Shown here one piece after another: positions 3,081 to 22,635 of a stretch of 64,000 nt of DNA; position 1 is the first letter of the stretch, and the number at the start of each line of letters is the position of its first letter. A program made the position numbers and the translations under genes. Under the pieces are notes generated by a model, which saw nothing but the letters and a program-made list of their open reading frames with translations, had not been told where the DNA came from and made no database searches. Where the stretch lies: the NCBI GenBank assembly GCA_902500995.1, contig CABVSR010000008.1, forward strand, positions 62,001 to 126,000. Reading direction: 5' to 3'. The stretch is from an uncultured Nitrospira sp. GTDB taxonomy: Bacteria > Nitrospirota > Nitrospiria > Nitrospirales > Nitrospiraceae.

Positions 3081-3713
3081 CTAGGGAATGGTCAGCAACT
3101 GTTCGGTCAACCGGGCTGCGCGTTCCGGCTTCACCTCCGCGAGAATGGCTCCCGCGGATTTTCCTTTGAGCAACCGGAGGACTTCGAGCGCCTTGCGTTC
3201 GGGCATGCGTTCCAGCCTGGCTGCGGCTTCTTCGGCGGGCATGGCTTCGTAGATCTTGGCAAGTTGGGCTTGATTGACGTTGACGGCGGGAGCGGTCTTG
3301 GCCGGTGATTTCGCCCGTTCGGCCTCGCCTCCCCCCTTGGCCTGAGCCGCCTGGCGGCGCTTCTTTTCCGCCTCGACCGCCTGTTCATGCCGCGTCACAA
3401 TCTGCTCCAGCTCCGCCTTCAATTCCAGGAGATGCGTCTCCGATCCGCGCACGGCCGCCTCGCGCTTGTCCAACAGCCGCTTGCGCTGCTCCAACATGTC
3501 GAAGATTTCCCGTGGTGCGCTGATAGCCGGCCCATGCACATCCTTCTTCACGCTCTCCGGTTTTACCTCCTCCTTCGGTGCCCCCGCAGCCGGTGCCGGT
3601 TCTTCTGCTGCCTGGACCGGTCCGGCAAGTACGAGCAGGAGCGCGGTGGAGAAGAGCCCTGCCGCCACGCCGGCAGGCAAACCATGCAGATTGCGGCTTC
3701 CGGTCTGAGTCAT
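3081..3713 (-). CDS. motE: MotE-type flagellar protein (MgtE-N-like domain)
   Basis: The protein is 210 aa. Residues about 13-36 form a hydrophobic segment ending AGPVQAA (signal anchor or signal peptide). Residues about 68-140 are a charged coiled coil rich in Glu, Lys and Arg. The C-terminal 60 residues (QLAKIYEAMPAEEAAARLER and the following LRLLKGKSAGAILAEV stretch) match the MgtE-intracellular-N-like fold used by MotE proteins. MotE is described as a periplasmic partner of the stator or MotC in some bacteria and is commonly encoded beside fliJ. Its ATG overlaps the fliJ stop (ATGA, 3710-3713), implying coupled translation. The exact role here is inferred from the fold and position. Confidence 0.75.
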   Translation of the reverse strand: MTQTGSRNLHGLPAGVAAGLFSTALLLVLAGPVQAAEEPAPAAGAPKEEVKPESVKKDVHGPAISAPREIFDMLEQRKRLLDKREAAVRGSETHLLELKAELEQIVTRHEQAVEAEKKRRQAAQAKGGGEAERAKSPAKTAPAVNVNQAQLAKIYEAMPAEEAAARLERMPERKALEVLRLLKGKSAGAILAEVKPERAARLTEQLLTIP

Positions 3714-4150
3714 GACCGTTCTCCCTTTTGCAATGGACTGCGCCGCCAGGCGCGTTCATCGAGCAGTTGTTGATCCTGGCGTTCGCGGCGGCGCCGCAGT
3801 TCGAGCGCAGCGCGGGTTGCGAGGAGATCCAGTTTTTTACGGTATTGCATGGCTTCCAGCAGTTCGCCGCGCTTCTGTTCCATCCTGCCCTGCTCCGCCG
3901 CCAGCGCCTGCTCCAAATGTTTCCGCGTGGCGATGGCTTGGTCCATCTGGTCGAGGAGGTGATACGCCTGATCCACCGTGCTTCCCTCGCGAACCTGAAG
4001 GAGATACCGGTCGGCCTTCTCTTGCGCCTGCGCTTCCAGCTGCTTCATCCGATTCACCGTCTGCTGCAGGGCATGACCGAGTTCCGCCAGTTCCAATTTT
4101 GCGACTTCTTCAAGCTGCACCGCATAGGTCCGCAGCACGGTCGGATTCAT
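3710..4150 (-). CDS. fliJ: Flagellar export chaperone/stalk protein FliJ
   Basis: FliJ is the small coiled-coil protein that sits in the centre of the FliI hexamer and links the export ATPase to the FlhA gate. The 146 residues are almost entirely charged helix (for example LEEVAKLELAELGHALQQTV and the RRRRERQDQQLLDERAWRR end), as in FliJ/YscO proteins, which are poorly conserved in sequence but constant in size and position. It lies directly between fliI and motE; its ATG overlaps the fliI stop (ATGA at 4147-4150). Identification rests on length, coiled-coil character and context. Confidence 0.82.
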   Translation of the reverse strand: MNPTVLRTYAVQLEEVAKLELAELGHALQQTVNRMKQLEAQAQEKADRYLLQVREGSTVDQAYHLLDQMDQAIATRKHLEQALAAEQGRMEQKRGELLEAMQYRKKLDLLATRAALELRRRRERQDQQLLDERAWRRSPLQKGERS

Positions 4151-5460
4151 TGAATCGTCCCTGCCAGCGTCATGAGCGCGTCGATGGATTGCGGAAACCC
4201 GACCGCCTGCTTGGTTTCCTGCCGGAGGAACGCGGTGATGCCGTCATGGGCGGAGACGGCTTTATCGAGTTCTTTGCTTGTGCCGGGCTTGTAGGCGCCG
4301 AGGGTGATCAAATCTTCGGAACGCCGATAGAGCGCCGTCCGCTCCAGCACCAGACGCGCGGCGGCATAATGGGCTGGCGTCACGATGTCGCGCATCACAC
4401 GGCTTGTGCTCTGAAGAATATCGATAGCGGGGAAATGATTCCGAGCGGCGAGTTCCCGCGACAAGACGATATGCCCGTCGAGAATGGACCGGACGGCATC
4501 CGCGACCGGATCGTTGAGATCGTCGCCGTCGACCAGCACCGTGTACAGTCCGGTAATGCTGCCGCCGCTTTGCGCCGGCCCGACCCGCTCCAGCAGTTTC
4601 GGCAACACGGCAAACACGGACGGCGTGTAGCCTTTCGTCGTCGGCGGCTCGCCGATGGCCAATCCGACTTCACGCTGGCTGTAGGCTAACCGCGAGAGTG
4701 AGTCCATCATGAGCAGAACATGCTTGCCGCAGTCCCGAAAGTATTCCGCGATCGCCGTCGCGACCAACGCGCCTCGAATGCGCACCAGCGGAGGCTGGTC
4801 GGAGGTTGCCACGACGACGATGGACCGAGCCCTCGCTTCAGGCGTGAGATCGCGCTCCAGAAACTCTTTGACTTCCCGGCCCCGTTCGCCGACCAGGGCA
4901 ATGACCCGGACATCTGCCTGCGTATAGCGGCTGATCATGCCCAGGAGCACGCTTTTTCCCACGCCGGACCCGGCGAAAACCCCGATTTTTTGCCCCTGGC
5001 CGCACGTCAGCAGCGCGTTGATGGCGCGGATGCCAAGATCGACCGGCTGCGTAATTCTGGCCCGATGCAAGGGATTCAGCGGCGGCGCGTATAAAGGAAC
5101 CCGCACCTCGGTGCGGAGGGGCGGAAGTCCGTCCAGCGGATGCCCGAGGCCATCGAAGATCCGGCCCAGCATCTGCGGGCCGACGGGCACGGACGCAACA
5201 TGGCCCTTCATCACCACGCGACTACCCGGCCCGATGCCCTGCATTTCACCTAACGGCATCAACAACACGCGATCTTCCCGGAACCCCACGACCTCCGCCA
5301 TGACGGCTCCGTGGCCGCCCTCACGGGTGATTTCGCAGACCTCCCCGACGGACGTAAACGGCCCCGAGGCTTCAATGACGATGCCGACGGCCTGCGCGAC
5401 CCGGCCCGTGACCGACAGGGGCTCGACATGCTCCAACCGTTCGCTAAGCTTCACCGGCAT
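4147..5460 (-). CDS. fliI: Flagellum-specific ATPase FliI
   Basis: FliI is the hexameric ATPase of the flagellar type III export apparatus, related to F1-ATPase beta, and acts at the cytoplasmic base of the basal body. The protein is 437 aa, normal for the family. It shows an N-terminal beta-barrel domain, Walker A at about 163-170 (AGSGVGKS), the LVGERGREVKEFLE stretch, Walker B (LLMMDSLSRLAYSQREV) and the LPKLLERVGP region. It overlaps the end of the receiver-FliH gene by 17 nt. The direct fliH-fliI adjacency is the usual arrangement and supports the identity of the fused upstream gene. Confidence 0.97.
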   Translation of the reverse strand: MPVKLSERLEHVEPLSVTGRVAQAVGIVIEASGPFTSVGEVCEITREGGHGAVMAEVVGFREDRVLLMPLGEMQGIGPGSRVVMKGHVASVPVGPQMLGRIFDGLGHPLDGLPPLRTEVRVPLYAPPLNPLHRARITQPVDLGIRAINALLTCGQGQKIGVFAGSGVGKSVLLGMISRYTQADVRVIALVGERGREVKEFLERDLTPEARARSIVVVATSDQPPLVRIRGALVATAIAEYFRDCGKHVLLMMDSLSRLAYSQREVGLAIGEPPTTKGYTPSVFAVLPKLLERVGPAQSGGSITGLYTVLVDGDDLNDPVADAVRSILDGHIVLSRELAARNHFPAIDILQSTSRVMRDIVTPAHYAAARLVLERTALYRRSEDLITLGAYKPGTSKELDKAVSAHDGITAFLRQETKQAVGFPQSIDALMTLAGTIQ

Positions 5461-6493
5461 CCCGCTTTCTCAAGGCTTCGCCCAGCCGCAACAATTGCGT
5501 GTCCAGGGTCGCATCGATCAAGAGGCTTTGCGCCTGGACGAGGCAGCCGCCGGGACTGATCGCAGGGTCCGTCTCGAATTTTAAGGTCAAGAGTCCGTGC
5601 GGCGTCTGGCTCAAGGCGGTTCGCGCCGTTTCGAGCACGGCGAGATCCGACGGGTGCACGCGCACGCGGACGAGGCCGCTTTCGTGCAGGTGGGTGAGTG
5701 CGCTTCGAACTTGCGCTACGATCAAGTCGCGTTTGTCCGTGACGGCGTCCCGCACGACCTTGTGGGCAATCATGAAGGAGAGCGACGTAATTTCCTCTTC
5801 GATGGTCTCATGCAGGCTTTGCCAGGTTTCCTCCAGCCTCCCCATCAGCGCCGCCACGAGGTTGTGCTCCCGTTGCCGCGCCGCCGCCAGCCTGTCGGTC
5901 GAACGCTTTTCCCCTTCCGCCACGCCCCGCTCGAACTCGGTCAGATCCTGGGTGCCGAAGGGCCGATTGCCGCGGCTGAAGTCGGCCAGCGGCACCGGAC
6001 GCAGTTGAATGTTGCCGGAGCGAATCAAGGTGCGGGTGAGCACCGTATTTTCCTGCCGCAGCCGGTAGAGCTCCAGCAGTCTGGACACTGCCAGCCGGAC
6101 CAGCTCGACCTGAAACGGTTTGGTCAGGAAATCCGCCGCCCCCGATTTCATCGCCCGGACTGCCAGCTCGATGTTGCCGTGCCCGGTCATCACGATGCCC
6201 AGGAGGCGATTATCGATGTCGAGCGCCTGCTGCAAAAAGGCGATGCCATCGGCGCCGCCGAGTTGCACATCGACGATGACGACGGCGACGGAGCGGGTGC
6301 GAAGATGATTCAGCGCTTCCGGGACCGAACCGGCTGTGAGAACGGGATGGCCGGTCGCCTCCAGCATCTCGGTCAGCAACAGGCAGATCGACGGTTCGTC
6401 ATCGACGATCAGCACGGCCCGCGGCGCCAACTCCTTCTCCGGCTCGGCCGACGTCCCTGCCGAAACGTCCGTGCTCACGGCAGCGCGTCCCAT
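5444..6493 (-). CDS. fliH: Fusion of response-regulator receiver domain and flagellar export protein FliH
   Basis: FliH dimers bind FliI, restrain its ATPase and tether it to the C-ring. Here 349 residues carry two parts. Residues about 25-145 are a complete CheY-like receiver: acidic pair D31/D32, phospho-acceptor D75 (VVIVDVQLGG), T103 (MTGHG) and K125 (LTKPF). Residues about 185-349 are FliH: a charged helix, then the conserved end (VRVRVHPSDL at 275-284, DPAISPGGC at 309-317, IDATLDTQLLRL at 326-337). A linker joins them in one frame, with no stop or frameshift visible. The ATG directly follows the fliG stop and has a GGAGGCGAGGAG ribosome site. Ordinary FliH is about 230 aa with no receiver. 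Control of export by phosphorylation is inference. Confidence 0.9.
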   Translation of the reverse strand: MGRAAVSTDVSAGTSAEPEKELAPRAVLIVDDEPSICLLLTEMLEATGHPVLTAGSVPEALNHLRTRSVAVVIVDVQLGGADGIAFLQQALDIDNRLLGIVMTGHGNIELAVRAMKSGAADFLTKPFQVELVRLAVSRLLELYRLRQENTVLTRTLIRSGNIQLRPVPLADFSRGNRPFGTQDLTEFERGVAEGEKRSTDRLAAARQREHNLVAALMGRLEETWQSLHETIEEEITSLSFMIAHKVVRDAVTDKRDLIVAQVRSALTHLHESGLVRVRVHPSDLAVLETARTALSQTPHGLLTLKFETDPAISPGGCLVQAQSLLIDATLDTQLLRLGEALRKRDAGEA

Positions 6494-7489
6494 TTACAAT
6501 AACTCCTCGCCTCCGCCGCCGCCGATCACGATACGACCTTCCTCCTCCAGCTTGCGGCAGACCTTGAGAATGTTCTGTTGCGCCTTTTCGACATCCGACA
6601 CTTTCACCGGCCCGCGAGTCTCCATGTCCTCCTTGAGCATTTCCGCCGCCCGGCTGGACATGTTCTTGAGGAACTTCTCTTTGATTTCCGGTGTCGCGCC
6701 CCGCAAGGCGATCGGCAGGTCTTCCTTGCTGATTTCCTTCATGAGCTCCTGCATTCCGCGCGAATCCAGGTCGACCAGGTCGTCGAAGACAAACATCAAT
6801 GCTCGGATGCTCTCCGCCAGGGCCTGGTCGCGTTCGGTGATCTTGGCCATAATTGCGCCTTCGGTGTTCTTATCGACGCGGGTCAGAATATCGGCCATCA
6901 ACTCCGCGCCGCCGACCGACATGCTCGACATGCCCATCGAAGCCGACAGAATATCCTGCAAACTTTCACTCAGCTCCGCCAGGACTTCAGGCTGGACTTC
7001 TTGCATCGTCGCGAGCCGCAGGGACACGTCCGCATGCAGATGCACCGGCAGGAGCGCCAGCACAGCGCCGGCCTGTTCGGCTTCCATCTGCCCGAGGCAG
7101 ACCGCGATGGTCTGCGGATGTTCAACCTTGAGGATCTGCGCGACCGTGCGGGCGTCGACCCATTTCAACGCGTCGATGCCCGGATAGGTCTTGGTGTTGA
7201 GGGATTCCATCATGCGCGCCGCCTTTTCCGGCCCCAGCGCCTTTTTCAGGATGGCTTCCATGAATTCCCGCCCTTCGAATTGCACCTCGCCGGAGGAACT
7301 CGCCTGTTCGAATTCCGCGATCACGCTGTCTTCTTCCTGCTTGGTGATATTCGCCGTCTCCTTCATGAACGTCCCGAGCTTGCGAATATCCTTCGGGTCA
7401 AGCGTTTTCATGACTGCGGCCGCGGCCTCCTCGCCGATCGCGCGGAGCAGGATGGCGGCTTTTTGCGCGCCGCTGAGTTCTTTGTTCAT
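6494..7489 (-). CDS. fliG: Flagellar motor switch protein FliG
   Basis: FliG forms the rotor ring that contacts FliF, FliM and the stator, and generates torque. The 331 residues are the normal length. Visible family features are the N-terminal GAQKAAILLRAIGEEAAAAV, the middle-domain EHPQTIAVCLGQM motif (EHPQT signature), and the C-terminal charged torque helix region (LMFVFDDLVDLDSRGMQELM, then KEDLPIALRGA). The C-terminus has a short polyglycine tract (IGGGGGEELL). It starts 11 nt after fliF and abuts the receiver-FliH gene with no gap. Confidence 0.97.
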   Translation of the reverse strand: MNKELSGAQKAAILLRAIGEEAAAAVMKTLDPKDIRKLGTFMKETANITKQEEDSVIAEFEQASSSGEVQFEGREFMEAILKKALGPEKAARMMESLNTKTYPGIDALKWVDARTVAQILKVEHPQTIAVCLGQMEAEQAGAVLALLPVHLHADVSLRLATMQEVQPEVLAELSESLQDILSASMGMSSMSVGGAELMADILTRVDKNTEGAIMAKITERDQALAESIRALMFVFDDLVDLDSRGMQELMKEISKEDLPIALRGATPEIKEKFLKNMSSRAAEMLKEDMETRGPVKVSDVEKAQQNILKVCRKLEEEGRIVIGGGGGEELL

Positions 7490-10498: not shown

Positions 10499-11917
10499 TC
10501 AGGGTTTATCGGCTTCGACCTGATGGCCCAGATCGCGATACTCCCGCAGTTTATTTCGTAACGTGCGGATACTGATCCCCAACTCCTTGGCGGCGTGCGT
10601 GCGATTGTCGTTCACGCGGGCCAGGGTCTTGAAGATGAGATCCCGTTCCATTTCCCACAGCGAACCGTGGGCCGACGGCGCCACGAGCGTTTCCACGGTT
10701 TCGACCGGCTGAACGGGAACCGCTCCGTCTCCGGGCATCAAGTGATCGGTGTCAACGGCATTTCCGGTTGTCACCAAAATGGCGCGCTCCATGACATTTT
10801 CCAGTTCGCGCACGTTTCCCTTCCAGGCGCGTTGCTGCAGGTCTGCGATGGCGCGCTCCGAAAGCGTGGGGACGGGCATCCCGTTACGTTGCGCGGACGA
10901 ACGGAGGAAATGCCTGGCCAGGAGCGGAATATCTCCGGGCCGTTCGCGGAGCGGAGGCACCGTGACCGGAAACACATTCAAGCGGTAGAACAAATCTTCT
11001 CGGAAGCGCCCTTGGGTCACTTCGTGATAGAGCGAGCGATTCGTCGTGGCGATCACGCGGATGTTCACCGGGACCGGCTCGCGCCCGCCGATGCGATCCA
11101 CTTCCCGTTCCTGCAGGACCCGTAACAGTTTCGCTTGCAGCCCCAGGTTCATTTCGCTGATTTCATCGAGAAACAGCGTCCCCGTGTGGGCCATTTCGAA
11201 CTTACCCAGCTTCTTGTGAATCGCTCCGGTAAACGCTCCTCGTTCATGCCCGAACAATTCACTTTCCAGCAGGCTGTCCGGAAGGGCCGCGCAGTTCAAG
11301 GCGACGAACGGGCGGTGGGCGCGAGGACTCCTCGCATGGATGTAGCGCGCCAGCAACTCTTTGCCCGTGCCGCTTTCCCCGCTGATCAAGACCGTGGCTT
11401 GGCTGGCGGCGACACCTTCGAGCGTCGTGAGCAAGCGAATCATGCCGGGGTCTTGCGTCAGGAGCGCTCGCGCTTCCAGTGTGGCGGGCGCATCCTGCCC
11501 ATCCGGCTCTGTGCTGGCCTGCAGATTGAGAATGACCCGCTCGAGGAGATCGGTTGAGAAGGGTTTCAGAATATAGTCGTTCGCCCCAAACTTCATGGCC
11601 TCCACCGCGGTTTCCACAGTGCCGTAGGCGGTCATGAGAATAATGAAGGTGTTGGGCGCCTTCTGCTTCAAAGCTTTCACGAGTTCGAGTCCGTTGATGC
11701 GCGGCATCTTCAAGTCGGTCACCACGAGCCAGGGCTTCACGCGTTCCACCTGTTCGATGGCATCCGCGCCGTCGATGGCTCCGCGGACTTGATAGCCCAT
11801 GCGGCGCACGGTTTCCGACAAGGCCGTCCGCATCGACGGCTCATCGTCGACAATCAAGACGGTTCGAGCTTCTTCGGCAGAAGCCGCGGGTTCCTGCAAA
11901 GCTGGTTGCGCGCTCAT
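10499..11917 (-). CDS. Sigma-54 response regulator, FlrC/FlgR-like
   Basis: NtrC-family activator of 472 aa: a receiver (D24/D25, phospho-acceptor D68, K118), an AAA+ domain with Walker A at about 180-187 (GESGTGKE), an intact sigma-54 contact loop GAFTGA at 227-232, the R-finger region (RLNVFPVTVPPLRERPGDIP), and a C-terminal Fis-type helix-turn-helix (HAAKELGISIRTLRNKLREY). It lies directly downstream of its likely kinase, with ATG overlapping the kinase stop (ATGA, 11914-11917), and directly upstream of flgB. By analogy with FlrBC/FleSR/FlgSR it probably activates the basal-body and hook promoters; that target assignment is inferred from the nearby -24/-12 sites. Confidence 0.88.
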   Translation of the reverse strand: MSAQPALQEPAASAEEARTVLIVDDEPSMRTALSETVRRMGYQVRGAIDGADAIEQVERVKPWLVVTDLKMPRINGLELVKALKQKAPNTFIILMTAYGTVETAVEAMKFGANDYILKPFSTDLLERVILNLQASTEPDGQDAPATLEARALLTQDPGMIRLLTTLEGVAASQATVLISGESGTGKELLARYIHARSPRAHRPFVALNCAALPDSLLESELFGHERGAFTGAIHKKLGKFEMAHTGTLFLDEISEMNLGLQAKLLRVLQEREVDRIGGREPVPVNIRVIATTNRSLYHEVTQGRFREDLFYRLNVFPVTVPPLRERPGDIPLLARHFLRSSAQRNGMPVPTLSERAIADLQQRAWKGNVRELENVMERAILVTTGNAVDTDHLMPGDGAVPVQPVETVETLVAPSAHGSLWEMERDLIFKTLARVNDNRTHAAKELGISIRTLRNKLREYRDLGHQVEADKP

Positions 11918-13200
11918 TCGTGCTCCCCTTCTGTTAAACCGACTCTCTCAGCTGACGATCCGGAATCTCCGTCTACGGCGACGCCTGATACCGGCATCTG
12001 AGGCGCCTGCGCAGGCCCTTGCGGCAGGGTGATCACAAACGAAGTGCCGCGGCCCGGGCTGCTTTCCACATCGATTCGCCCCTGATGGGCTTCCACCAAC
12101 GCGTGGACGATGGCGAGCCCCAGACCCGTCCCCTGATCTTTCGTCGTGAAGAACGGATCAAAGACCCGTGACTGCAGCTCGGACGGAATGCCCGTGCCGG
12201 TATCACTGACTGTGAGTTGAATGGCCGTCGATTCCTGGGGCTGATGAGAGGCAGGACAGGCTGCCAGGGTCAGTGTGCCGCCCTCCGGCATGGCCTGCAC
12301 CGCATTCAAGACCAGGTTTAAGAGCACCTGTTTCATTTTCGGACCGTCGCACCAGAGTTGAGGCACGAGCGGATGGACCTCACAGCGTACCTCGACGGAG
12401 CCCGGAGGAATGGCATGACTCGCCAGAGTCAACACTTCTCTGATCAGCAACTCCGTCGCATGCCAGCCAAGGCGTGAGCAGTCCGGCCTGGTATACACGA
12501 GGAGGTTGGACAGCAGCCGATCCATGGATTGCACAGCCATGGAAATATGCTCGGCATAACTCCGGAGCTGGGGCTGGTCGCGAAGATCCTTCCGCAGCAT
12601 CGAGGCAAACAATTCCACACTGCCCAAGGGGTTTCGAATCTCGTGCGCGATGCTGCCGACCATTTGCCCCATGGCTTCCAGGCGGTTACGCCGCTGCAAT
12701 CGATCTTCGAGCTGGCGAATGCGCGTGACGTCATGGATCAGGACGAGTTTCCCGATGAGTGTTCCCGTTTCGTCCGTCAGGTCGGTTTGTGATAAGGCGA
12801 TGGTGATGCCGCTGGGCAGCACCACCGGGTACTCGCCATGCTGTTGCCGGATCTCTTCCACAATGGCTCGGACCTGACGCCCCCGCAGCTGCGCTTGGGA
12901 CAGGCCCAGCAACCGCTCCGTCGAGTGATTGCACCGCATGACCACATCCTGCGAATCGGCGACGATGACGCCGGTATCCAGTGACTCCAGAATCGCCGTC
13001 ACATGAGCGCGCATCGCTTCGGTTTCACGGAGATGCTCGCGCAGACTCGCATTGGTCTGCGCGAGCTCCAGATCCATTTGCTGCAGGCGCGTGGTCAAGG
13101 CGTCATACGACTGCTGCAACACGGTTGCTGCCTGATCAAAGTCCCGAAAGGCGCGCGTCAGCAGATCATGATTCGGTGTGGCTGTCTCAGGCGTAGTCAC
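11914..13200 (-). CDS. PAS-containing histidine kinase, FlrB/FlgS-like
   Basis: Cytoplasmic sensor kinase of 428 aa with no membrane segment. Order: N-terminal coiled coil (about 20-65), PAS domain (about 66-160, ILESLDTGVIVADSQDVVMR), HisKA with H186 (VGSIAHEIRNPLGS), then HATPase_c with the N box (NLVLNAVQAMP), DTGTGIP and GTGLGLAIVHALVEAHQG. The GTG start at 13200 overlaps the stop of the preceding TPR gene (GTGA), which implies translational coupling; longer upstream starts would run into that gene in another frame. Partner of the regulator gene that follows. Soluble kinases of this type time flagellar assembly in other bacteria; the signal here is unknown. Confidence 0.85.
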   Translation of the reverse strand: MTTPETATPNHDLLTRAFRDFDQAATVLQQSYDALTTRLQQMDLELAQTNASLREHLRETEAMRAHVTAILESLDTGVIVADSQDVVMRCNHSTERLLGLSQAQLRGRQVRAIVEEIRQQHGEYPVVLPSGITIALSQTDLTDETGTLIGKLVLIHDVTRIRQLEDRLQRRNRLEAMGQMVGSIAHEIRNPLGSVELFASMLRKDLRDQPQLRSYAEHISMAVQSMDRLLSNLLVYTRPDCSRLGWHATELLIREVLTLASHAIPPGSVEVRCEVHPLVPQLWCDGPKMKQVLLNLVLNAVQAMPEGGTLTLAACPASHQPQESTAIQLTVSDTGTGIPSELQSRVFDPFFTTKDQGTGLGLAIVHALVEAHQGRIDVESSPGRGTSFVITLPQGPAQAPQMPVSGVAVDGDSGSSAERVGLTEGEHE

Positions 13201-15368
13201 GGCTTTTTCCCTCGTGTATCGGCAGGAGCTTCCGGCAATTCCGTTTCCAGCATCGCTGCCATGCGGCGGACGAGACTGTCGGGATTGACGCTGAGCGCCC
13301 GCAGTCCGTTTCGGGCAAAGTCCTCGCGTTTCACGACGCGGGCCAGCTGAACCATCTGCAGTTGGGCCCAAGCTTCCTGCTCGGGCTCTAGTCCGGCGAC
13401 AACGGCCTGTTTGTACATCGCCAACGCCGGCGCCTGACGGTTGAGGCGAACCAGTAGATCGGCATGCCGCAGCAGGTCCCCGGCGGGCAGTTCATGGCCG
13501 GCCTTGATGAGGCCGTCATAAATTGCGGCTGCCTCGGCGTCTTGTTTGGATTGCGCCAAAACCCCGGCGAGTTTCAGCTGCACCATCATGCGGTCATGGT
13601 GACGTGGGTTGTGCGCGAGCCATTGTTTGCCAAGTTTCAGCAAGGCGGCGAGATTGCCTTCGCCTTCGAACGAGTTCAGGATTCCACGCAACGCTTCTCC
13701 TGACAATCGCCCTGCGGGAAATTCCAGGCGATACCGCTCGAATACGGCTCGCGCCGCGCGCATATCCTTTTGTTCCATATAACTGTAGGCCAGCCCCATC
13801 AGAGCCGTTTCATGAAGATTGACCGCTTTCGAGTCCCGCACCAGAGATTGAAACAGCCGCGCCGCCTCCACGGGAAATCCCAGGCGGCGGTGCGTTTCCG
13901 CAATCGTGAGCAACAACTCCGTGCCGGCGTAAAACCGATCGGCAGACGGCCCATGCCGATGGAAGAGGTTGATCAACTCGAAATCGTCTTCTGCCTTGAG
14001 CGCCGCCTCCAGGCGAGGGCGGAGGAACCGGACCAGCTGCGCGCCGCTTTTTTCCGGCCAAGGATCGTGCTCGAACTTGCCTGTGCGCTGCACGACCTGT
14101 TCGTACGCGCGCAAGGCATCCTCTGATTTACCCGCTCGCTCCAAGGCTTCCCCGAGATGGAACAGCGCCTCGCTGCCGACGGTCGATCCCTCGTAGTCCT
14201 TGGCGCTCTGTTCGAATACCCGCCGGGGACTGAGCATTTCTCCCGGCTTCAAGGGCACCTTCGCCAGGTGCGCGGCGATCGTGTGCCGGAGATTGCCTTC
14301 CTCTCCTTCCGGATTCAGATGTTCCTGCACATCGGCATACCGAATCCTGGCCGTGGCGGCGACCGGGGCATCGGGGTATTGGCTCAAGAGCGCCGCGTAG
14401 AAGATGCTGGATTCAGCCCACCGCCCGGCCTCCTTGTAACTATCGGCGAGGTAGGTGAGCACAAACGGCGTTTCAGGGCGGGTTGGGTACAAATTGTAAA
14501 AATGCAGCAACTGTTCGCGCATCACCGGTCCCCGCTGTGCTTCGCCCGCCGTATCGGCATACCGGAGCAAGGCAAAGGCATCGCTCCTGAGCCCGGCCGG
14601 CCAGCGATTGGAGATACTTTCGTACAGCGCGTCGGCTTCCTTCAGACGACCCAGGCGATAGAAACTGTGGGCTTCGCCCAACGACGCCGATACCAGCAAC
14701 GTGGGGTCTACGGTGCGTTTCAAGACATGCTCGAAGGTCTGCGTGCTCTCTTTCCAATTTTTAAAGCCCCTCAGCACATAGCCCAAGCCGAGCATGGCCC
14801 GGTTCGCATCGAACGAATCGCGTTCGGTGAGGGAGAGGGCATGTTGATAGGCAATCTGCGCTTCCTGGAACCACCCTTCCACACGATAGACATCACCAAT
14901 TCGCCAGGCTGCCCGCTTGGCATTGGTCGACTGAGGATTCTCACGCATCAAGGTCTTATACTGATCGATGATATCGAGCGGTCGGACGTCAGGATCCCGG
15001 CTCTGGAGCAGACTTTCTGCCAGAAACGCTTGCATGGCCGATCTGAGCGGTGACTCGCGATGATCACGAAGCATCGTGATGAAATGCAGGCGTGCTTCGA
15101 GGTACTGCCCGTGCTTGAACAAGCGCATGCCCTGTTCAAACTGCTTCCATTCCGGGTTTTCCGGCAGGCGCTCGACACGTGGGCCCGGATCAGGCAATGT
15201 CCCACGCACGAGTTCATCCGGCTCGGGCATCATGGGCGGCAATTCTTGCCGCATCGTGGATAATCCGCCTGCTGCCATCGCGGGGACTAGCCCCACGATC
15301 AGGAGCCAACTCACCACGTAGCCTGTGCAAGCGAAAGTACAACGCGCTGTTGAAATGAAGGATCGCAC
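13197..15368 (-). CDS. Exported tetratricopeptide-repeat protein beside flagellar two-component genes
   Basis: The 723-aa frame opens with a signal-peptide-like stretch (hydrophobic VSWLLIVGLVPAMA before AAGG). The rest is helical TPR-type repeats throughout, for example ARLHFITMLRDHRESPL, AQIAYQHALSLTERD, LGEALERAGKSEDALRAYEQ and ALMGLAYSYMEQKDMRAARA. It ends in a GTGA overlap with the kinase gene, so the two are translated together. The furthest start is GTG at 15368, which has no ribosome site and lies 2 nt from the transcription start predicted from the -24/-12 site; GTG at 15317 or 15314 is possible but would leave the signal peptide without basic residues. Function is not recognised; position suggests periplasmic input or assembly support for the flagellar regulators. 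Confidence 0.75.
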   Translation of the reverse strand: MRSFISTARCTFACTGYVVSWLLIVGLVPAMAAGGLSTMRQELPPMMPEPDELVRGTLPDPGPRVERLPENPEWKQFEQGMRLFKHGQYLEARLHFITMLRDHRESPLRSAMQAFLAESLLQSRDPDVRPLDIIDQYKTLMRENPQSTNAKRAAWRIGDVYRVEGWFQEAQIAYQHALSLTERDSFDANRAMLGLGYVLRGFKNWKESTQTFEHVLKRTVDPTLLVSASLGEAHSFYRLGRLKEADALYESISNRWPAGLRSDAFALLRYADTAGEAQRGPVMREQLLHFYNLYPTRPETPFVLTYLADSYKEAGRWAESSIFYAALLSQYPDAPVAATARIRYADVQEHLNPEGEEGNLRHTIAAHLAKVPLKPGEMLSPRRVFEQSAKDYEGSTVGSEALFHLGEALERAGKSEDALRAYEQVVQRTGKFEHDPWPEKSGAQLVRFLRPRLEAALKAEDDFELINLFHRHGPSADRFYAGTELLLTIAETHRRLGFPVEAARLFQSLVRDSKAVNLHETALMGLAYSYMEQKDMRAARAVFERYRLEFPAGRLSGEALRGILNSFEGEGNLAALLKLGKQWLAHNPRHHDRMMVQLKLAGVLAQSKQDAEAAAIYDGLIKAGHELPAGDLLRHADLLVRLNRQAPALAMYKQAVVAGLEPEQEAWAQLQMVQLARVVKREDFARNGLRALSVNPDSLVRRMAAMLETELPEAPADTRGKKP

Positions 15369-15538: not shown

Positions 15539-16954
15539 TCAATTCTGAATGGAATACCCATGACTTTTGGGATCGAATCCTTTCCGTTTCAGTTTTTCGA
15601 CAAGGGTCGTGCGATTGACTTGGAGCAACTGAGCGGCGCGACTGGTTATGCCATTCGCTTTGCGCAAGGCTTCGCCGATGAGACGGTTTTCGTAAACCTC
15701 GAGCTCCTTCGTTAAATTGATGCCGTCTTCAGAAAAGCGGATAAACTGCTCGGGGGCCTCGGCCGTCTTGCCGGCAGTCGTCTTTAACGCACGCTCCGGG
15801 AGATCGGCCAGGGTGATCATGCCTCTCTTTTTCAACACACAGAGGCGCTCGATCATATTTTCAAGTTCACGAATGTTTCCCGGCCATTCTTCTTCCGTCA
15901 TGCGCACCAATGCGTCCGGCTCCATTCCGAGAATCTCTGTGCGGCGCAACTGGTTGAATTGAGCGATAAAATGGTTGATGAGAAGCGGGATATCGCTGCG
16001 CCGTTCCCGTAATGGAGGAATGTGAATGGGAATGACGTGCAATCGATAATAGAGATCCTGCCGGAAGCGCCGCTCCTGAACGGCCTGCGCGAGATCTTGA
16101 TTGGTGGCGGCGATAATCCGCACATCGACGTTAATCGTCCTCGTTCCCCCCACACGCTCGAAGCATCGCTCCTGGAGTACCCGCAGCAGCTTTACCTGCA
16201 AGGGCAGGCTCATTTCCCCCACTTCATCTAAAAAGATGGTGCCTCCATGGGCCAGTTCAAAACGGCCAAGCCGGGTGTGAGCAGCTCCGGTAAAGGCTCC
16301 CTTTTCATGACCGAACAGCTCCGACTCCAAGAGGGTTTCGGGAATTGCACCGCAGTTGACCGGCACCAACGGCCGGTCTCGCCGCATGCTATTGAAATGC
16401 AACATGCGCGCAATCAACTCTTTTCCCGTTCCGCTCTCCCCTTCGATCAAGACCGTACTATCGCTATCAGCGACCTTTTCGACAAAATCCAGCACCGTCC
16501 GCATCGGCGCGCTGGTGCCCACCAAATGCTCGAGACGATATTGATCCCGTACCGCTTTGCGAAGAAGGTGGTTCTCCTGTTTCAGCTTATATACATCCAA
16601 GGCTTTCCGCACGACTACGGCAACGGTGTCGGGCTCAAAGGGTTTGGTGATAAAGTCGAAGGCGCCGGCTTTCATCGCGCGCACCGCGTAATCAACGGTT
16701 CCATATCCGGTCATGACAATGGCGATCACCTTGGAATCGATCTTGGAGATCCTGTCGATCGTTTCCAGCCCATCAATTCCTGGCATCTGAAGATCCGTCA
16801 GCACGACATGGACCGGCTGATCCTTCACCGCTTCTACACCGTCCAGCCCGCTCGACATGACCGTCACTTGATGGCCTTCACTGGACAGTGTTTCCGCCAA
16901 GAGCTGGCGTACCGCCGGGTCGTCGTCGATGACGAGAATGTGTGATTGGCTCAT
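15539..16954 (-). CDS. Sigma-54 response regulator with FleQ/FlrA-like DNA-binding end
   Basis: NtrC-family activator of 471 aa: receiver with D10/D11, phospho-acceptor D54 and K104; AAA+ domain with Walker A at 172-179 (GESGTGKE) and intact GAFTGA at 219-224; C-terminal Fis-type helix-turn-helix (GITSRAAQLLQVNRTTLVEK), whose NRTTLVEK recognition helix resembles FleQ/FlrA master flagellar regulators. Unlike FleQ and FlrA, the receiver keeps all phosphorylation residues. The ATG at 16954 follows AGAGGAG. It begins the run of minus-strand flagellar genes but has its own 170-nt gap downstream. The partner kinase is not obvious; the adjacent FlrB-like kinase is one candidate. Confidence 0.83.
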   Translation of the reverse strand: MSQSHILVIDDDPAVRQLLAETLSSEGHQVTVMSSGLDGVEAVKDQPVHVVLTDLQMPGIDGLETIDRISKIDSKVIAIVMTGYGTVDYAVRAMKAGAFDFITKPFEPDTVAVVVRKALDVYKLKQENHLLRKAVRDQYRLEHLVGTSAPMRTVLDFVEKVADSDSTVLIEGESGTGKELIARMLHFNSMRRDRPLVPVNCGAIPETLLESELFGHEKGAFTGAAHTRLGRFELAHGGTIFLDEVGEMSLPLQVKLLRVLQERCFERVGGTRTINVDVRIIAATNQDLAQAVQERRFRQDLYYRLHVIPIHIPPLRERRSDIPLLINHFIAQFNQLRRTEILGMEPDALVRMTEEEWPGNIRELENMIERLCVLKKRGMITLADLPERALKTTAGKTAEAPEQFIRFSEDGINLTKELEVYENRLIGEALRKANGITSRAAQLLQVNRTTLVEKLKRKGFDPKSHGYSIQN

Positions 16955-17314: not shown

Positions 17315-17390
17315 GCTGGCGTAGCTCAATTGGCAGAGCAGCGGTTTTGTAAACCGCCGGTTGGGGGTTCGATTCCTCTCGCCAGCTCCA
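17315..17390 (+). tRNA. tRNA-Thr (anticodon TGT)
   Basis: A 76-nt cloverleaf: acceptor GCTGGCG pairs with CGCCAGC, D arm GCTC/GAGC, anticodon arm GCGGT/ACCGC enclosing TTTGTAA with anticodon TGT, and T loop TTCGATT. CCA is encoded. A decayed integrase gene lies immediately downstream on the other strand, so the 3' end of this tRNA was probably an integration site. Confidence 0.97.
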
Positions 17391-17394
17391 TACA

Positions 17395-17949
17395 TTCCAC
17401 TGACGAATCAACCGGTTGGCGGCTTACAGAGCCGCTACTCTCCCCTCGCAGTTCTGCGAGTGTACCCATAAGTGTAACCGTCTGACTCTCAAAGTACGCC
17501 GACAGCGAACGCGCGGCCTGTTCGGGGTCTCGTTCGTTCACAATGTTGTGCCGGTCGAAGACGCTTCGAGTCTTATGGCCTGAAATGGACATGGCCACCT
17601 TCTCTGGCACTCCTGCCCGCACCATGTTGAGCACCGCAGCACGACGGAAGTCACGTGGGATTCTACCTACCCATACTAAGTGCTTTTTCTTCTCGTCTTT
17701 CACCATCCCACCGAGGCCAACCCTCTCGCATGCCTTCCGCCAGGAATGCTTCAAGCTCTGTAGGCGGATTCTCCACGATGGCAGATCCAGGCACAACCAG
17801 GCCATTTGAGGTCGAAACGAGCTCGTTCCGAGCCAATGTAACCCTGGACAGATTCTCTGTGTGATTCGTAGACATCCTTTCACTTTGTGGCGTCCTCTGT
17901 CGCGCTTGGGCACGTCGATGGAGCGCCAAATCTGCCTGGTAGTGAGCAA
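17395..17949 (-). pseudogene. Decayed tyrosine recombinase (phage-type integrase) remnant at tRNA-Thr
   Basis: The frame carries only the C-terminal catalytic region of a tyrosine recombinase: a helix ending SLKHSWRKACERVG, then RDFRRAAVLNMVRAGVPE, SISGHKTRSVFDRHNIV and NERDPEQAARSLSAYF. In relatives the box II reads H-D-L-R and the active-site line reads FDRYNIV. Here the box II His is Arg and the nucleophilic Tyr is His (CAC), so it should be inactive. The N-terminal arm and core-binding domains are absent, and residues before about 63 do not look like integrase. The open frame runs on into the antisense of the tRNA, which is not protein-coding. I found no second copy of the tRNA 3' end to mark attR. 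Confidence 0.75.
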
Positions 17950-18561: not shown

Positions 18562-18903
18562 ATGCCAAAGCATTTTAGGCTTCGTACCTACCAGAGGGTC
18601 ATGAGCTGCAATGTCGGCTATTACCTCTCGGAAGATTTTCTTGGAAAAGGCATCATCCGGGATATTTCGACCGGGGGATGGCGTATACAAGGTGACCATC
18701 AAGTCGAAATAGGGATGAAACTCACATTGCGAATGGAGTTCCAGGAAGATAAGTCACCCCTGGAAATAGAGGAAGCTTCAGTTCAATGGGTCAGCGGAAA
18801 AGATTTCGGGATTCAGATTAGAAAGATCCGTCAGACGACGGCAAAGCGATTAGAACGTTTGGTGGGACATCAGTTCTGCGCGCTTCCTCAAATTGAGCAT
18901 TAG
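18562..18903 (+). CDS. PilZ domain protein
   Basis: A 113-aa PilZ protein with RxxxR (R8-R12, RTYQR) and DxSxxG (D34-G39, DISTGG), so cyclic-di-GMP binding is expected. The barrel ends in VQWVSGKDFGIQIRKI, followed by a helix with KRLERLVG, matching the layout of the upstream PilZ protein, although overall similarity is low. Its stop overlaps the 3' end of the convergent GlrR-like gene by 4 nt. No enzymatic domain is attached; a role as a protein adaptor is inferred. Confidence 0.87.
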   Translation: MPKHFRLRTYQRVMSCNVGYYLSEDFLGKGIIRDISTGGWRIQGDHQVEIGMKLTLRMEFQEDKSPLEIEEASVQWVSGKDFGIQIRKIRQTTAKRLERLVGHQFCALPQIEH

Positions 18904-20315
18904 ACATCCTTGACCTCCTCGGCCGCGTCTTCAACCTCACTGAGTTCCAAGTCATGGCGCCCCTTCAGCATCGAGGGATGCAACCCATACTTCTTTAACA
19001 TTTTATAGAAATCCGCCCGATACCGGCCGGCAAACTGAGCTGCCCGGGAGATATTTCCGCCGGTCATTTGCAGAACGTTTCGCAAATAGGAACGCTCAAA
19101 TTCTTCTTTAGCTTCGGTCAAAGGTTTCATGCCAATATCGGTCGATGCCCCACCGGATGGAAGAAGTTCGGGCAACACCATGTCCTGTCGCGACATGACT
19201 ACGGCTTTCTCCACTGCATTCTCAAGTTCCCTGACATTGCCGGGCCATGGGTAGCCCATTAGCCGGTGCATGGCGGCTGGTGTAAATCCACGCACATCTT
19301 TGTTAGCACGACTGGCACTTTGCTTTAGAAAATGCTGGGCCAGGAGCGGAATGTCGTCCCTTCTCTCCCGCAAGGCTGGAATATTGAGTGGCACTACCGA
19401 AACTCTATAGTAGAGATCATGTCGAAATGTTCCAAGCTTTACACATTCCGTCAAATTCTTGTTGGTGGCCGTGATGATCCGCACATCGACTTTTGTCATA
19501 TAATCCGCGCCTACTTCCCGCACTTCCCTCTCTTGCACTGCGCGAAGCAGTTTTACCTGCATCGGAAGCGGCATTTCCGCAATCTCATCGAGGAAAAGAG
19601 TTCCCCCGTTCGCGCTTTGAAAAAGCCCACGTTTGGCGGTCATGGCGTTCGTAAATGCCCCGCGGATATGCCCGAACAATTCGCTTTCAAATAGAGATTC
19701 ACTGATTGCGGCGCAATTCAACGCTACAAACGGCCCCTTCGATCGACGGCTGTTGGCATGTAGAATTCGGGCCAGCACCTCTTTCCCGGTTCCTGTTTCG
19801 CCGGTCAGCAGTACGGATGCATCTGAATCGGCGATCTGAGCCACTTGCTGAAACAAGCGCTGCATGGCGGGACTTCTCGCGATAACATTCTCCAAGCCAT
19901 AGAGCTCTTTGACCAGGGACTTCAGCCGTTGAATTTCTCGAGTCATTCTCAACTGAATCAGAGCTTTATCTATCGTCGCTTTTAACTCTTTGTCTTCGAA
20001 CGGCTTGGTCAAATATCCGAAGGCCCCCCGTTGCATCGCATCTACGGCGTTGGGAATACTTCCGTGTGCGGTTAAAATGATAACGGGAAGCCCAGGTTGA
20101 ATCTGTAAAAGTTCTTCCGTGAGCACCAATCCATCTTCTGCTCGCAACCGCAGGTCCGTGATCGCGATATCGAAAGTTTCCTGTCGAGCAGCGACAAGCG
20201 CATCGCTTCCGGTCGTACAAGGGGTCACTGAAAATCCGAGCGCAGACAGCCGCATGCGCAGTAAATGCAGCAGGCCTTCGTCATCATCCACAACGAGAAT
20301 TCGTTCTTGTTCCAT
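18900..20315 (-). CDS. glrR: GlrR/QseF-type response regulator with GAFTNA loop
   Basis: NtrC-family regulator of 471 aa: receiver (D10/D11, phospho-acceptor D54, GAFGYLTKPF with K104), AAA+ domain with Walker A at 172-179 (GETGTGKE), and a GlrR-like C-terminal helix-turn-helix (ISRAAQFAGRYRADFYKMLK). The sigma-54 contact loop, normally GAFTGA, reads GAFTNA at 219-224 (codons 19644-19661). The order kinase, QseG-like lipoprotein, regulator matches glrK-qseG-glrR of enterobacteria, where GlrR activates glmY with sigma-54. Whether this version still activates sigma-54 is uncertain. It starts 8 nt after the lipoprotein gene. Confidence 0.82.
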   Translation of the reverse strand: MEQERILVVDDDEGLLHLLRMRLSALGFSVTPCTTGSDALVAARQETFDIAITDLRLRAEDGLVLTEELLQIQPGLPVIILTAHGSIPNAVDAMQRGAFGYLTKPFEDKELKATIDKALIQLRMTREIQRLKSLVKELYGLENVIARSPAMQRLFQQVAQIADSDASVLLTGETGTGKEVLARILHANSRRSKGPFVALNCAAISESLFESELFGHIRGAFTNAMTAKRGLFQSANGGTLFLDEIAEMPLPMQVKLLRAVQEREVREVGADYMTKVDVRIITATNKNLTECVKLGTFRHDLYYRVSVVPLNIPALRERRDDIPLLAQHFLKQSASRANKDVRGFTPAAMHRLMGYPWPGNVRELENAVEKAVVMSRQDMVLPELLPSGGASTDIGMKPLTEAKEEFERSYLRNVLQMTGGNISRAAQFAGRYRADFYKMLKKYGLHPSMLKGRHDLELSEVEDAAEEVKDV

Positions 20316-20323
20316 GACGGCCC

Positions 20324-21124
20324 TTAGGGTTTGGACGGCTCCGACTGTTGCGAAGGGACAAAACTCGATGGCGGCTTCATCGGACGGACTTTCCCTCTCA
20401 TCTCCTGATCGATGCGCTTGAGCGCTTCAAGCTGGTTGGTGAGTTCCTCGATTTTCTTGTCACGATCGCTGACTTGCCGCTGGAGGCTTTGAAGAGTCGC
20501 CGGCTCAACCGACATGCGGTGGGATTCGCGGCGGGAATTGAACTGTTCCGCCTTCCGCTCCTGATCCTGAAGCTCACGCTGCATGGCCTCGAGCGATTGA
20601 GCCTCGCTGTCCTGCAACGCGCGTAATTGTTGAATGATGAGTTCGCGGTCGAGGAGATCTCGTACGGTACGTTCGATGGTTTGGGAAAGCACCACGTGGG
20701 TCTGGGCGATTGCGGGGCCGCTCCATACGGAGCGGAACCACGATTGATCAGGCGACACCTCACCCGCCTGCAGCAATTGCAGCCAAAATCGGCTCGACGC
20801 GGCCAAGTGGCCCTTGGGGGAAACGGCAATGACTTTCTCAAAATTATGGATGGCCGACTCTCGACTTTCATACAGAGACGTCAATGCGCGGGCGAAGAAT
20901 ACATGATCGCAGGTATTTTTACTAGCGCATTTGGTCATTGACGAGGAATCTTTACGTAGAGTGGCTGGCAAAATTTTGTCCCCGCCCCCATCGCTTGAAA
21001 AATATGGGGTCTGAGGCGAGGGCGGGGGGAGGGTGCCGCAGGCAGACAGCAGTCCCAGGAACACCAGCAGGGCTATGGGGTGCCGCTGCTGCACTAAGCC
21101 AAAACCCCTGGTCTCGTTAGGCAT
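20324..21124 (-). CDS. qseG: QseG-like lipoprotein
   Basis: A 266-aa lipoprotein with a lipobox near residue 29 (LGLLSACG). A helical middle carries CDHVFFARALTSLYESRESA and SPKGHLAASSRFWLQLLQ. A long C-terminal coiled coil (about 175-245, LEAMQRELQDQERKAEQF and DRDKKIEELTNQLEALKR) ends in a Pro/Ser-rich tail. In enterobacteria QseG is an outer-membrane lipoprotein that interacts with and activates the GlrK (QseE) kinase. Its start overlaps the kinase gene by 31 nt and the regulator follows 8 nt after its stop. Sequence resemblance is modest, so the name rests on order, lipobox and coiled coil. Confidence 0.68.
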   Translation of the reverse strand: MPNETRGFGLVQQRHPIALLVFLGLLSACGTLPPPSPQTPYFSSDGGGDKILPATLRKDSSSMTKCASKNTCDHVFFARALTSLYESRESAIHNFEKVIAVSPKGHLAASSRFWLQLLQAGEVSPDQSWFRSVWSGPAIAQTHVVLSQTIERTVRDLLDRELIIQQLRALQDSEAQSLEAMQRELQDQERKAEQFNSRRESHRMSVEPATLQSLQRQVSDRDKKIEELTNQLEALKRIDQEMRGKVRPMKPPSSFVPSQQSEPSKP

Positions 21125-22635
21125 AAGATAAATCGCACGGTTGTCCCTTTTCCGACTTCACTTTCCACCCAAATTCTTCCGCCATGGGCTTCTACGACTT
21201 TTTTGGCAAGGGCCAATCCGAGTCCGCTTCCCATTGAAGCTTGCCGATTTTTGGTGCGGCCCTGATAAAAGCGCTCGAAAATATGTGGCAGTTCCTCTGC
21301 AGTGATGCCGGGCCCCGAGTCTGCCACCTGGACGAACAGCAACCCTTCATCGCCACGTGGGATCATCTGCAACTTCACCATCGCACCCTCAGGACTGTAC
21401 TTCAACGCATTCGAGAGGAGATTGTCCAGTACTTGTTCAATCCGCGTGCTATCGGCCCTAACCCAGTGCCGTTCCACCGGGGCCTCAATCACGAGTTGCA
21501 CCTGTTTGGCATCCGCCAACAGACGAATTTTATTGACCGAAATATCAGCAATCCGCCGAAGATCCGTCGGGACAAAACGATACTCCATCATGCCCGACTC
21601 CATTTTGGACAGATCCAGAATCGTAGAAATGAGAGACATTAACCTCCGACTACTGTCTGACATGATACGGAGAGTGGTTCGTTGGTCTTGCGTCAATGGA
21701 CCGGGAATTTCATCCAATAGCAGGTGCGTGCCTTCCTGAATTGAAGCCATCGGGGTGCGCAGCTCATGAGAAACATGGGCGAGGAATTCGCTTTTGATAT
21801 CATCCAACTGTTGCAGCTTGGTTCCCATGGACTTGACGGTTTCGCCCAACTCTCGCAATTCGCGAGGGGCCTGCCCATCCAGCGGGGCGTTAAAATTGCC
21901 TAGCCCCATCTCCTGAATCGTAGACTGAAGCCGGCGCAAGGGTCGAAGAATGTTATAGCTTGCCACCGCGGCCATGCCGAGGCCAAACAGAAGGGCGACC
22001 AAAACGAGATTGCGGGTAACGGCTTCCGCCTGCACGGAGCTGGCATGAGACTCGTTTACTCCCGCTGCGAGGCGCTGTTCATGCAATCCGATGTACCGCT
22101 GAAGCGTGGTCGCCATTTTCCCCACCAGGAGCTCGCGCCGCTCATCATAGGCCGAACTCGAGGTCTGGTGCCCGCTTGACTCAGCCAGCTGGGATTGAAA
22201 GAGGGCCAGGTGCGCCTGCTGTAGCTGTTCGACCTCCTTGAGTAACCTCACCTCAGGCTCAGAGGCGTCATGGGCGAGTAAACTCTGCAAAATCTGCTGG
22301 AATTCTTGGCTTTCGGCATCGAAATGCTCAAGAAACGTGGCGGCAGGGACCGCCACATACTTCTTTTCGCCCTGAACCTGCTCATAGACGGATGCTAACA
22401 GGCGTTTGGCAGAATTGATCTCCGGGTGATGGTGAGACGCGACCTCCGTATTGAGACCGGCCAATGTCCGAATCTGCAACAGCGCATAGACATTCACGGC
22501 GGTCATAACGGCGATGATGACCAGATACGTGAGGATTAATCGCCAGAAAATGGAGAGGCGCAAGACCAGGCCCCCTGCGGATGAACGGACGCACGGCCTT
22601 GCCCAAGCGGCAGTGCAGGTTAATCCATACACCAC
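21094..22635 (-). CDS. glrK: GlrK/QseE-type membrane histidine kinase
   Basis: Sensor kinase of up to 513 aa: membrane helix at about 31-54, a helical periplasmic domain (about 55-208), a second helix at 209-229, HAMP, HisKA with H290 (AHVSHELRTPMASIQEG) and HATPase_c (DNLLSNALKYSPEG, DSGPGI, GSGLGLALAKKVVEAHGG). This is the layout of GlrK, which responds to envelope conditions in enterobacteria. The start is uncertain: GTG at 22635 has an upstream AGGGGAGAAGGGA, while TTG at 22563, behind GGGGG with 7-nt spacing, would begin directly at RLSIFWRLI. It is the first gene of the kinase-lipoprotein-regulator operon. Confidence 0.82.
   Translation of the reverse strand: MVYGLTCTAAWARPCVRSSAGGLVLRLSIFWRLILTYLVIIAVMTAVNVYALLQIRTLAGLNTEVASHHHPEINSAKRLLASVYEQVQGEKKYVAVPAATFLEHFDAESQEFQQILQSLLAHDASEPEVRLLKEVEQLQQAHLALFQSQLAESSGHQTSSSAYDERRELLVGKMATTLQRYIGLHEQRLAAGVNESHASSVQAEAVTRNLVLVALLFGLGMAAVASYNILRPLRRLQSTIQEMGLGNFNAPLDGQAPRELRELGETVKSMGTKLQQLDDIKSEFLAHVSHELRTPMASIQEGTHLLLDEIPGPLTQDQRTTLRIMSDSSRRLMSLISTILDLSKMESGMMEYRFVPTDLRRIADISVNKIRLLADAKQVQLVIEAPVERHWVRADSTRIEQVLDNLLSNALKYSPEGAMVKLQMIPRGDEGLLFVQVADSGPGITAEELPHIFERFYQGRTKNRQASMGSGLGLALAKKVVEAHGGRIWVESEVGKGTTVRFILCLTRPGVLA

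Follow-up and report, generated by a model that had tools for sequence, protein, structure and literature searches.

The sole FliH encoded in this window (the whole stretch of DNA analysed, 64,000 nucleotides of an uncultured Nitrospira genome) carries a new, fixed regulatory domain. Comparisons of sequences and genomes show the protein to be a Nitrospiraceae fusion that evolved once, in which the receiver and adjoining helix of the flagellar cluster's own sigma-54 regulator were added before the only FliH and the phosphorylation site was kept under strong selection. The fusion gene lies on the minus strand at 5444..6493, exactly where an earlier note on this DNA had placed it, and encodes 349 amino acids, with an ATG at 6493, a stop codon ending at 5444 and no internal stops. 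Pfam detects both a Response_reg domain (residues 27-134, E 2.8e-22, well over the curated cut-off) and a FliH domain (PF02108; residues 212-336, E 4.1e-21, 75.7 bits versus a cut-off of 24.1), in agreement with the earlier note's claim of a receiver and FliH in one uninterrupted frame, and all five receiver residues that it had listed (D31, D32, D75, T103 and K125) were found at those positions. NCBIfam FliH models also match the protein, at scores below their equivalog cut-offs. A search of the host genome (3.97 Mb, 56 contigs) with the FliH family returned this protein alone, so the flagellum must use the receiver-bearing FliH. The genome belongs to the same genus group as Ca. Nitrospira defluvii, and G055 and G397 show the same genome place.

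The fusion is placed with fliG and fliI in a flagellar operon of the order fliG-fliH-fliI-fliJ. Its start codon abuts the stop codon of fliG (6494..7489, minus strand; gap 0), which encodes the C-ring/rotor protein directly upstream, and its 3' end shares 17 nt with fliI (4147..5460, minus strand), which encodes the export ATPase and expected FliH partner; both neighbours are assigned by domain-model matches. The full minus-strand order is RR2, TPR protein, HK1, RR1, flgB, flgC, fliE, fliF, fliG, fliH, fliI, fliJ, MotE-like, fliK and flgD. RR1 (10499..11917, minus strand) and RR2 (15539..16954, minus strand) are NtrC-family sigma-54 regulators; RR1 is FlgR/FleR/FlrC-like and adjoins its partner HK1 (11914..13371, minus strand), a PAS-HisKA-HATPase histidine kinase resembling FlgS/FleS/FlrB. 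A MotE-like protein with an MgtE_N-type domain is encoded between fliJ and fliK (3081-3713), where it is conserved family-wide and recognisable at class level. A large TPR-repeat-like protein (13197-15368) overlaps the start of HK1, lies between RR2 and HK1 in nearly all relatives and is a candidate HK1 partner or sensor. An ORF at 17326-17949, a short way upstream of the flagellar cluster, has a translation that resembles by eye a fragment of a site-specific recombinase, and at 18900-22635 a sigma-54 regulator, a small lipoprotein-like protein and a membrane sensor kinase stand in a row that, also by eye, resembles a GlrR-QseG-GlrK block.

The fusion is characteristic of one family. A FliH search covered 396 genomes of the phylum, of which 80 regions plus smaller loci were read; FliH frames are about 345-360 aa or longer in Nitrospiraceae and 200-280 aa nearly everywhere else. 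Among the matches listed, with the weakest left out, 61 Nitrospiraceae FliH loci were read, and 58 of these, including that of Ca. Nitrospira defluvii, encode the fusion, which is thus the normal form there and no single-genome curiosity. No receiver was present in any of 28 FliH proteins from other families, orders and classes of the phylum, and three Nitrospiraceae members (L072, L073 and L082) have an ordinary short FliH without one. The database search proposed in the earlier note recovers FliH homologues with a receiver across this family. A stop or frameshift between the two halves, which that note had named as grounds for rejecting the fusion, is contradicted by the same unbroken frame in 58 genomes, several of them assembled in one or few contigs, and chance or misassembly is excluded by this recurrence.

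In a FastTree phylogeny of FliF, FliG and FliI, 57 fused genomes group together in a single clade (local support 1.0), to which L072, L073 and L082 are sister; this tree was preferred over that of the FliH domain, in which shortened domains misplaced L057, L062 and L086. Since the fused clade is single and the three non-fused members are sister to it, one gain is sufficient and no loss is needed, and on this phylogeny the fusion arose once, after the three non-fused Nitrospiraceae members had split off. Those three provide a ready outgroup for functional comparison.

Searches beyond the phylum gave a compatible picture. FliH is present in 243 of 397 genomes of Desulfobacterota (148) and Pseudomonadota (249), and 20 long-frame proteins from these phyla, a sample by length that does not extend to frames of roughly 270-330 aa or to all of the longer ones, all contained FliH and never a receiver. 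A profile of the fused protein run against both phyla returned ordinary receivers only and, at 5-8 candidates scored per genome, is no test of independent fusions. In a named genome collection scanned with a receiver pattern, full-length matches among the best 80 of at least 500 were all from Nitrospira/Nitrospiraceae, including Ca. N. defluvii and N. moscoviensis, the latter found by this separate search; one full-length match among these best 80, labelled Nitrosospira, is 91% identical to the window protein. With only the best 80 of at least 500 considered, the restriction to Nitrospiraceae in this collection is supportive rather than exhaustive. A scan of viral contigs found no relatives of the fusion. 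We note that the FliH frame of N. moscoviensis (L225) is open for at least 640 aa, far upstream of the receiver, which leaves its start codon uncertain, and the lengths annotated in different genomes may not agree.

The donor of the receiver can be traced within the same cluster. Of 64 receiver matches in the genome, that of RR2 scores highest after FliH itself, with a lead of about 25 bits, and the alignment of FliH with RR2 spans both the receiver and the linker helix at 40% identity. In a tree of 94 receivers, those of FliH form one clade (97/92) inside the RR2 clade (99/98) and away from RR1. Together, the best match and this nesting indicate that the FliH receiver and its alpha-5/linker helix were duplicated from RR2, and on these comparisons the donor is the RR2 lineage, about 9 kb away. 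RR2 has been kept beside the fusion in nearly all members.

The protein is built from four consecutive segments, all encoded on the minus strand: a receiver core (residues 27-135; 6089..6415) with the acidic pair D31/D32, phospho-acceptor D75, T103 and K125; an extended alpha-5/coiled-coil helix (residues 129-158; 6020..6109) of the NtrC-family receiver-linker type LxxxRLRxENxVL; a low-confidence linker (residues 159-186; 5936..6019); and a FliH stalk helix with one GxxxG step followed by the C-terminal FliI-binding domain (residues 187-349; 5447..5935). An AlphaFold2 model built with 16 relatives contains a confident receiver (pLDDT about 85-93), with alpha-5 running to residue 158, and, after the low-confidence linker (160-181 in the model), a long FliH helix (186-267) that runs on to the C-terminal domain; its pTM is just 0.40, leaving the relative position of the receiver and FliH halves undefined in the model. 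The predicted receiver fold matches the receiver-linker structures of NtrX, NtrC1 and DctD, with PorX also among the structure matches. In NtrC1 and DctD, the receiver-linker helix makes up a dimer coil, through which assembly of the attached ATPase into a ring is controlled. R138, L145, R146, V151 and L152 of this helix are invariant in an alignment of 16 diverse fusion members. The fusion thus has an NtrC-type receiver and linker helix, yet it is not a member of the NtrC-family sigma-54 regulators: Pfam detects neither the AAA+ sigma-54 interaction domain nor an HTH, and a FliH domain stands in their place.

The junction may carry traces of the older FliH N-terminus. FliH proteins of the non-fused relatives start with a motif resembling SK[VI][IL]K...v..[FY].[LM]..[LV], the fused proteins continue after the coil with ...VLK..v.r.g.vr......l..F, and the two earliest-branching fused proteins have VNAFRLADL and MSPFQLSHI at this place. 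Profile comparison aligns the non-fused N-terminus with the post-coil stretch from the first residue, at P 1.7e-4 when the G-repeat is counted, although the probability is just 23%; when the G-repeat is removed, the score tops all 200 column shuffles, but barely. The match is suggestive of an ancestral FliH N-terminal tether motif that persists after the coil, within the linker. It also suggests that the receiver was put in front of a nearly whole FliH, beside the part that binds FliN and FlhA in Salmonella.

Conservation of the receiver residues, which the earlier note had made a test of its reading, is high. Among fused FliH proteins, D75 and K125 are present in 58/58, T103 in 57/58 (one Ser) and an acidic residue at D31 in 58/58, and the full active site including D32 is intact in 50/58. 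The eight losses of D32 (L053, L054, L055, L057, L062 and L086, and also L065 and L081; motifs VDAD, VDHD and VDGD) fall in three separate lineages, with six in one sub-clade (VDAD), and D75, T103 (one Ser) and K125 are retained in these proteins too. The RR1 receiver is intact in 60/60 in these genomes, so FliH receivers are somewhat less constrained than this classical regulator, and phospho-control may not hold in every member; the D32-loss members form a natural contrast set on whether phosphorylation matters. Between close pairs, dN/dS is mostly 0.025-0.05 in the receiver and 0.04-0.08 in the FliH part, and the linker helix usually shows zero amino-acid change (dN = 0 in most pairs); two pairs have higher values, reaching 0.15 for the receiver, and one of the two belongs to the VDAD sub-clade. 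In most lineages, then, the receiver is under purifying selection no weaker than that on the FliH part. A functionless passenger, either a neutral relic or an artefact of sequencing or assembly, could account for the loss of one active-site residue in some lineages, but is hardly credible for a receiver found in 58 independent genomes, several in one or few contigs, with dN/dS far under 1 and an invariant phospho-site.

A purely structural role has more in its favour. The receiver could act, whether phosphorylated or not, as a constitutive dimeriser or adaptor by which FliH is anchored, on the C-ring for instance: its place is at the N-terminal end, which is the tether of FliH in Salmonella (PMC9114704), and the fusion is still kept in the 8/58 members without the acidic Mg-site residue. 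Such a docking module is nevertheless unlikely, as a pure scaffold would have no need of the D75, T103 (one Ser) and K125 found in all members, or of the full site found in 50/58.

The reading that we favour, with a probability of about 0.5, is that phosphorylation alters how the receivers at the N-terminal end of FliH pair, and so gates docking or release of FliI. The Salmonella FliH dimer binds FliI as FliH2-FliI and suppresses its ATPase, and brings FliI to the C-ring/export gate through its extreme N-terminus, which binds FliN and FlhA (PMC9114704); the position of the receiver at this end counts for phospho-gating. Docking and the release of FliI into the hexamer would be the two natural control points. 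By the proposed mechanism, the receiver would act as in NtrC-family regulators, in which phosphorylation rearranges a receiver-coil dimer controlling assembly of a ring-forming ATPase. From the coil, the FliH dimer would continue into its N-terminal tether and stalk, and phosphorylation of FliH by a flagellar kinase would alter docking at the C-ring/export gate, the hold on hexamer-forming FliI, or both. Export would then be licensed or throttled at the protein level. That phosphorylation of the FliH receiver controls export is plausible; the fuller claim, that a two-component signal acts directly on the export ATPase complex by switching FliI docking or ring assembly, falls just short of an even chance.

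Several observations temper this reading. With a low-confidence linker between the halves, their mechanical coupling may not be tight, and the loss of D32 in 8/58 members across three lineages, set against RR1 intact in 60/60, implies that phosphorylation may be dispensable in some members. Neither FliH nor FliI is strictly required for export in Salmonella (PMC5789064), which limits the control possible at this point there. No kinase is specifically tied to the fusion, the HK1 pair being present without it and the contact positions being different, and this also counts against phospho-gating.

HK1 had been put forward in the earlier note as the obvious source of phosphate, the kinase-regulator pair being encoded about 5.4 kb upstream, and in that role it was set aside: HK1-RR1 is conserved in place, just as regularly present and identically ordered, in relatives at order and class level that lack the receiver-FliH. 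FliH receivers also differ from RR1, and descend from RR2. At five alpha-1 contact positions, which from kinase-regulator complexes we take to be those that usually set kinase choice, RR1 has mostly S-M-A-E-T/S and FliH mostly x-I-L-E-M/L. HK1 is a possible FliH kinase that the data do not single out. A particular form of phospho-gating would have HK1 sense completion of the MS-ring/rotor and phosphorylate RR1 as well as FliH, so that transcription and export would be linked through a single checkpoint. The conserved flagellar cluster encodes no other histidine kinase, and HK1-RR1 are similar to FlgSR/FleSR/FlrBC, which need FliF, FliG and the export apparatus for their activity (PMC7064773); the checkpoint is doubtful all the same, given the pair's presence in relatives without the fusion, the differing contact positions and a FliH receiver not derived from RR1.

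The descent from RR2 permits a further reading, in which the signal runs back to transcription. FliH would still pair with RR2 or compete with it for the kinase, the sigma-54 programme would be damped or tuned by free FliH, and recruitment of FliH to the growing export apparatus would lift the brake. In its favour, the receiver came from the RR2 lineage, nearly all members still have RR2 next to the fusion, no part of the protein is more constrained than the dimerising linker helix, and flagellar two-component systems elsewhere read out assembly of the export apparatus and MS-ring/rotor (PMC7064773). The receivers of FliH and RR2 are clearly separated, at 40% identity and with diverged kinase-contact positions, and we judge such feedback quite unlikely.

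Direct gating of export through the FliH receiver, if true, would place type III export under post-translational kinase control, with the regulatory half of an NtrC-type AAA+ switch grafted onto a rotary-type export ATPase. The contribution of FliH and FliI to export, and post-synthesis adjustment of export itself, are still debated, and a natural FliH with a conserved phosphorylation switch offers a handle for turning the export step on and off. The fusion is also a traceable evolutionary event, with donor, recipient and sister lineage identified, by which a gene-regulatory switch moved to a structural machine, and it holds in most flagellated members of the nitrite-oxidising Nitrospiraceae, which are globally important nitrifiers. 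No description of a receiver-bearing FliH was found in the open literature searched, most subscription papers lying outside that search, in keeping with the earlier note, which knew of none; the proteins will be present in automatic domain databases, since the genomes were made public years ago.

Compared with known systems, the protein agrees with FliH (PF02108) in its C-terminal FliI-binding domain, its long stalk helix with a GxxxG step, its fliG-fliH-fliI-fliJ gene order and its single copy, and differs in the N-terminal receiver and NtrC-type coil. Salmonella FliH has an N-terminal Trp motif (W7/W10), whereas the Nitrospira fusion lacks it and has, beyond the coil, just a tether-like stretch of weak similarity. 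With NtrC-family receivers and linkers (DctD, NtrC1, NtrX and RR2) it shares sequence, fold, phosphorylation residues and the alpha-5/linker helix, by direct descent from the RR2 lineage; the output of those regulators is an AAA+ and DNA-binding domain, and that of the fusion a flagellar export protein. PorX of the type IX secretion system is comparable as a response regulator with an output directed at secretion, but its output domain and machine are unrelated and its receiver is not fused to an ATPase regulator. The FlgSR/FleSR/FlrBC systems (PMC7064773) are alike in tying two-component signalling to assembly of the export apparatus and MS-ring/rotor, and the equivalent pair in this cluster is HK1-RR1; the phosphorylated protein there is a transcription factor, whereas here the receiver belongs to the export machinery.
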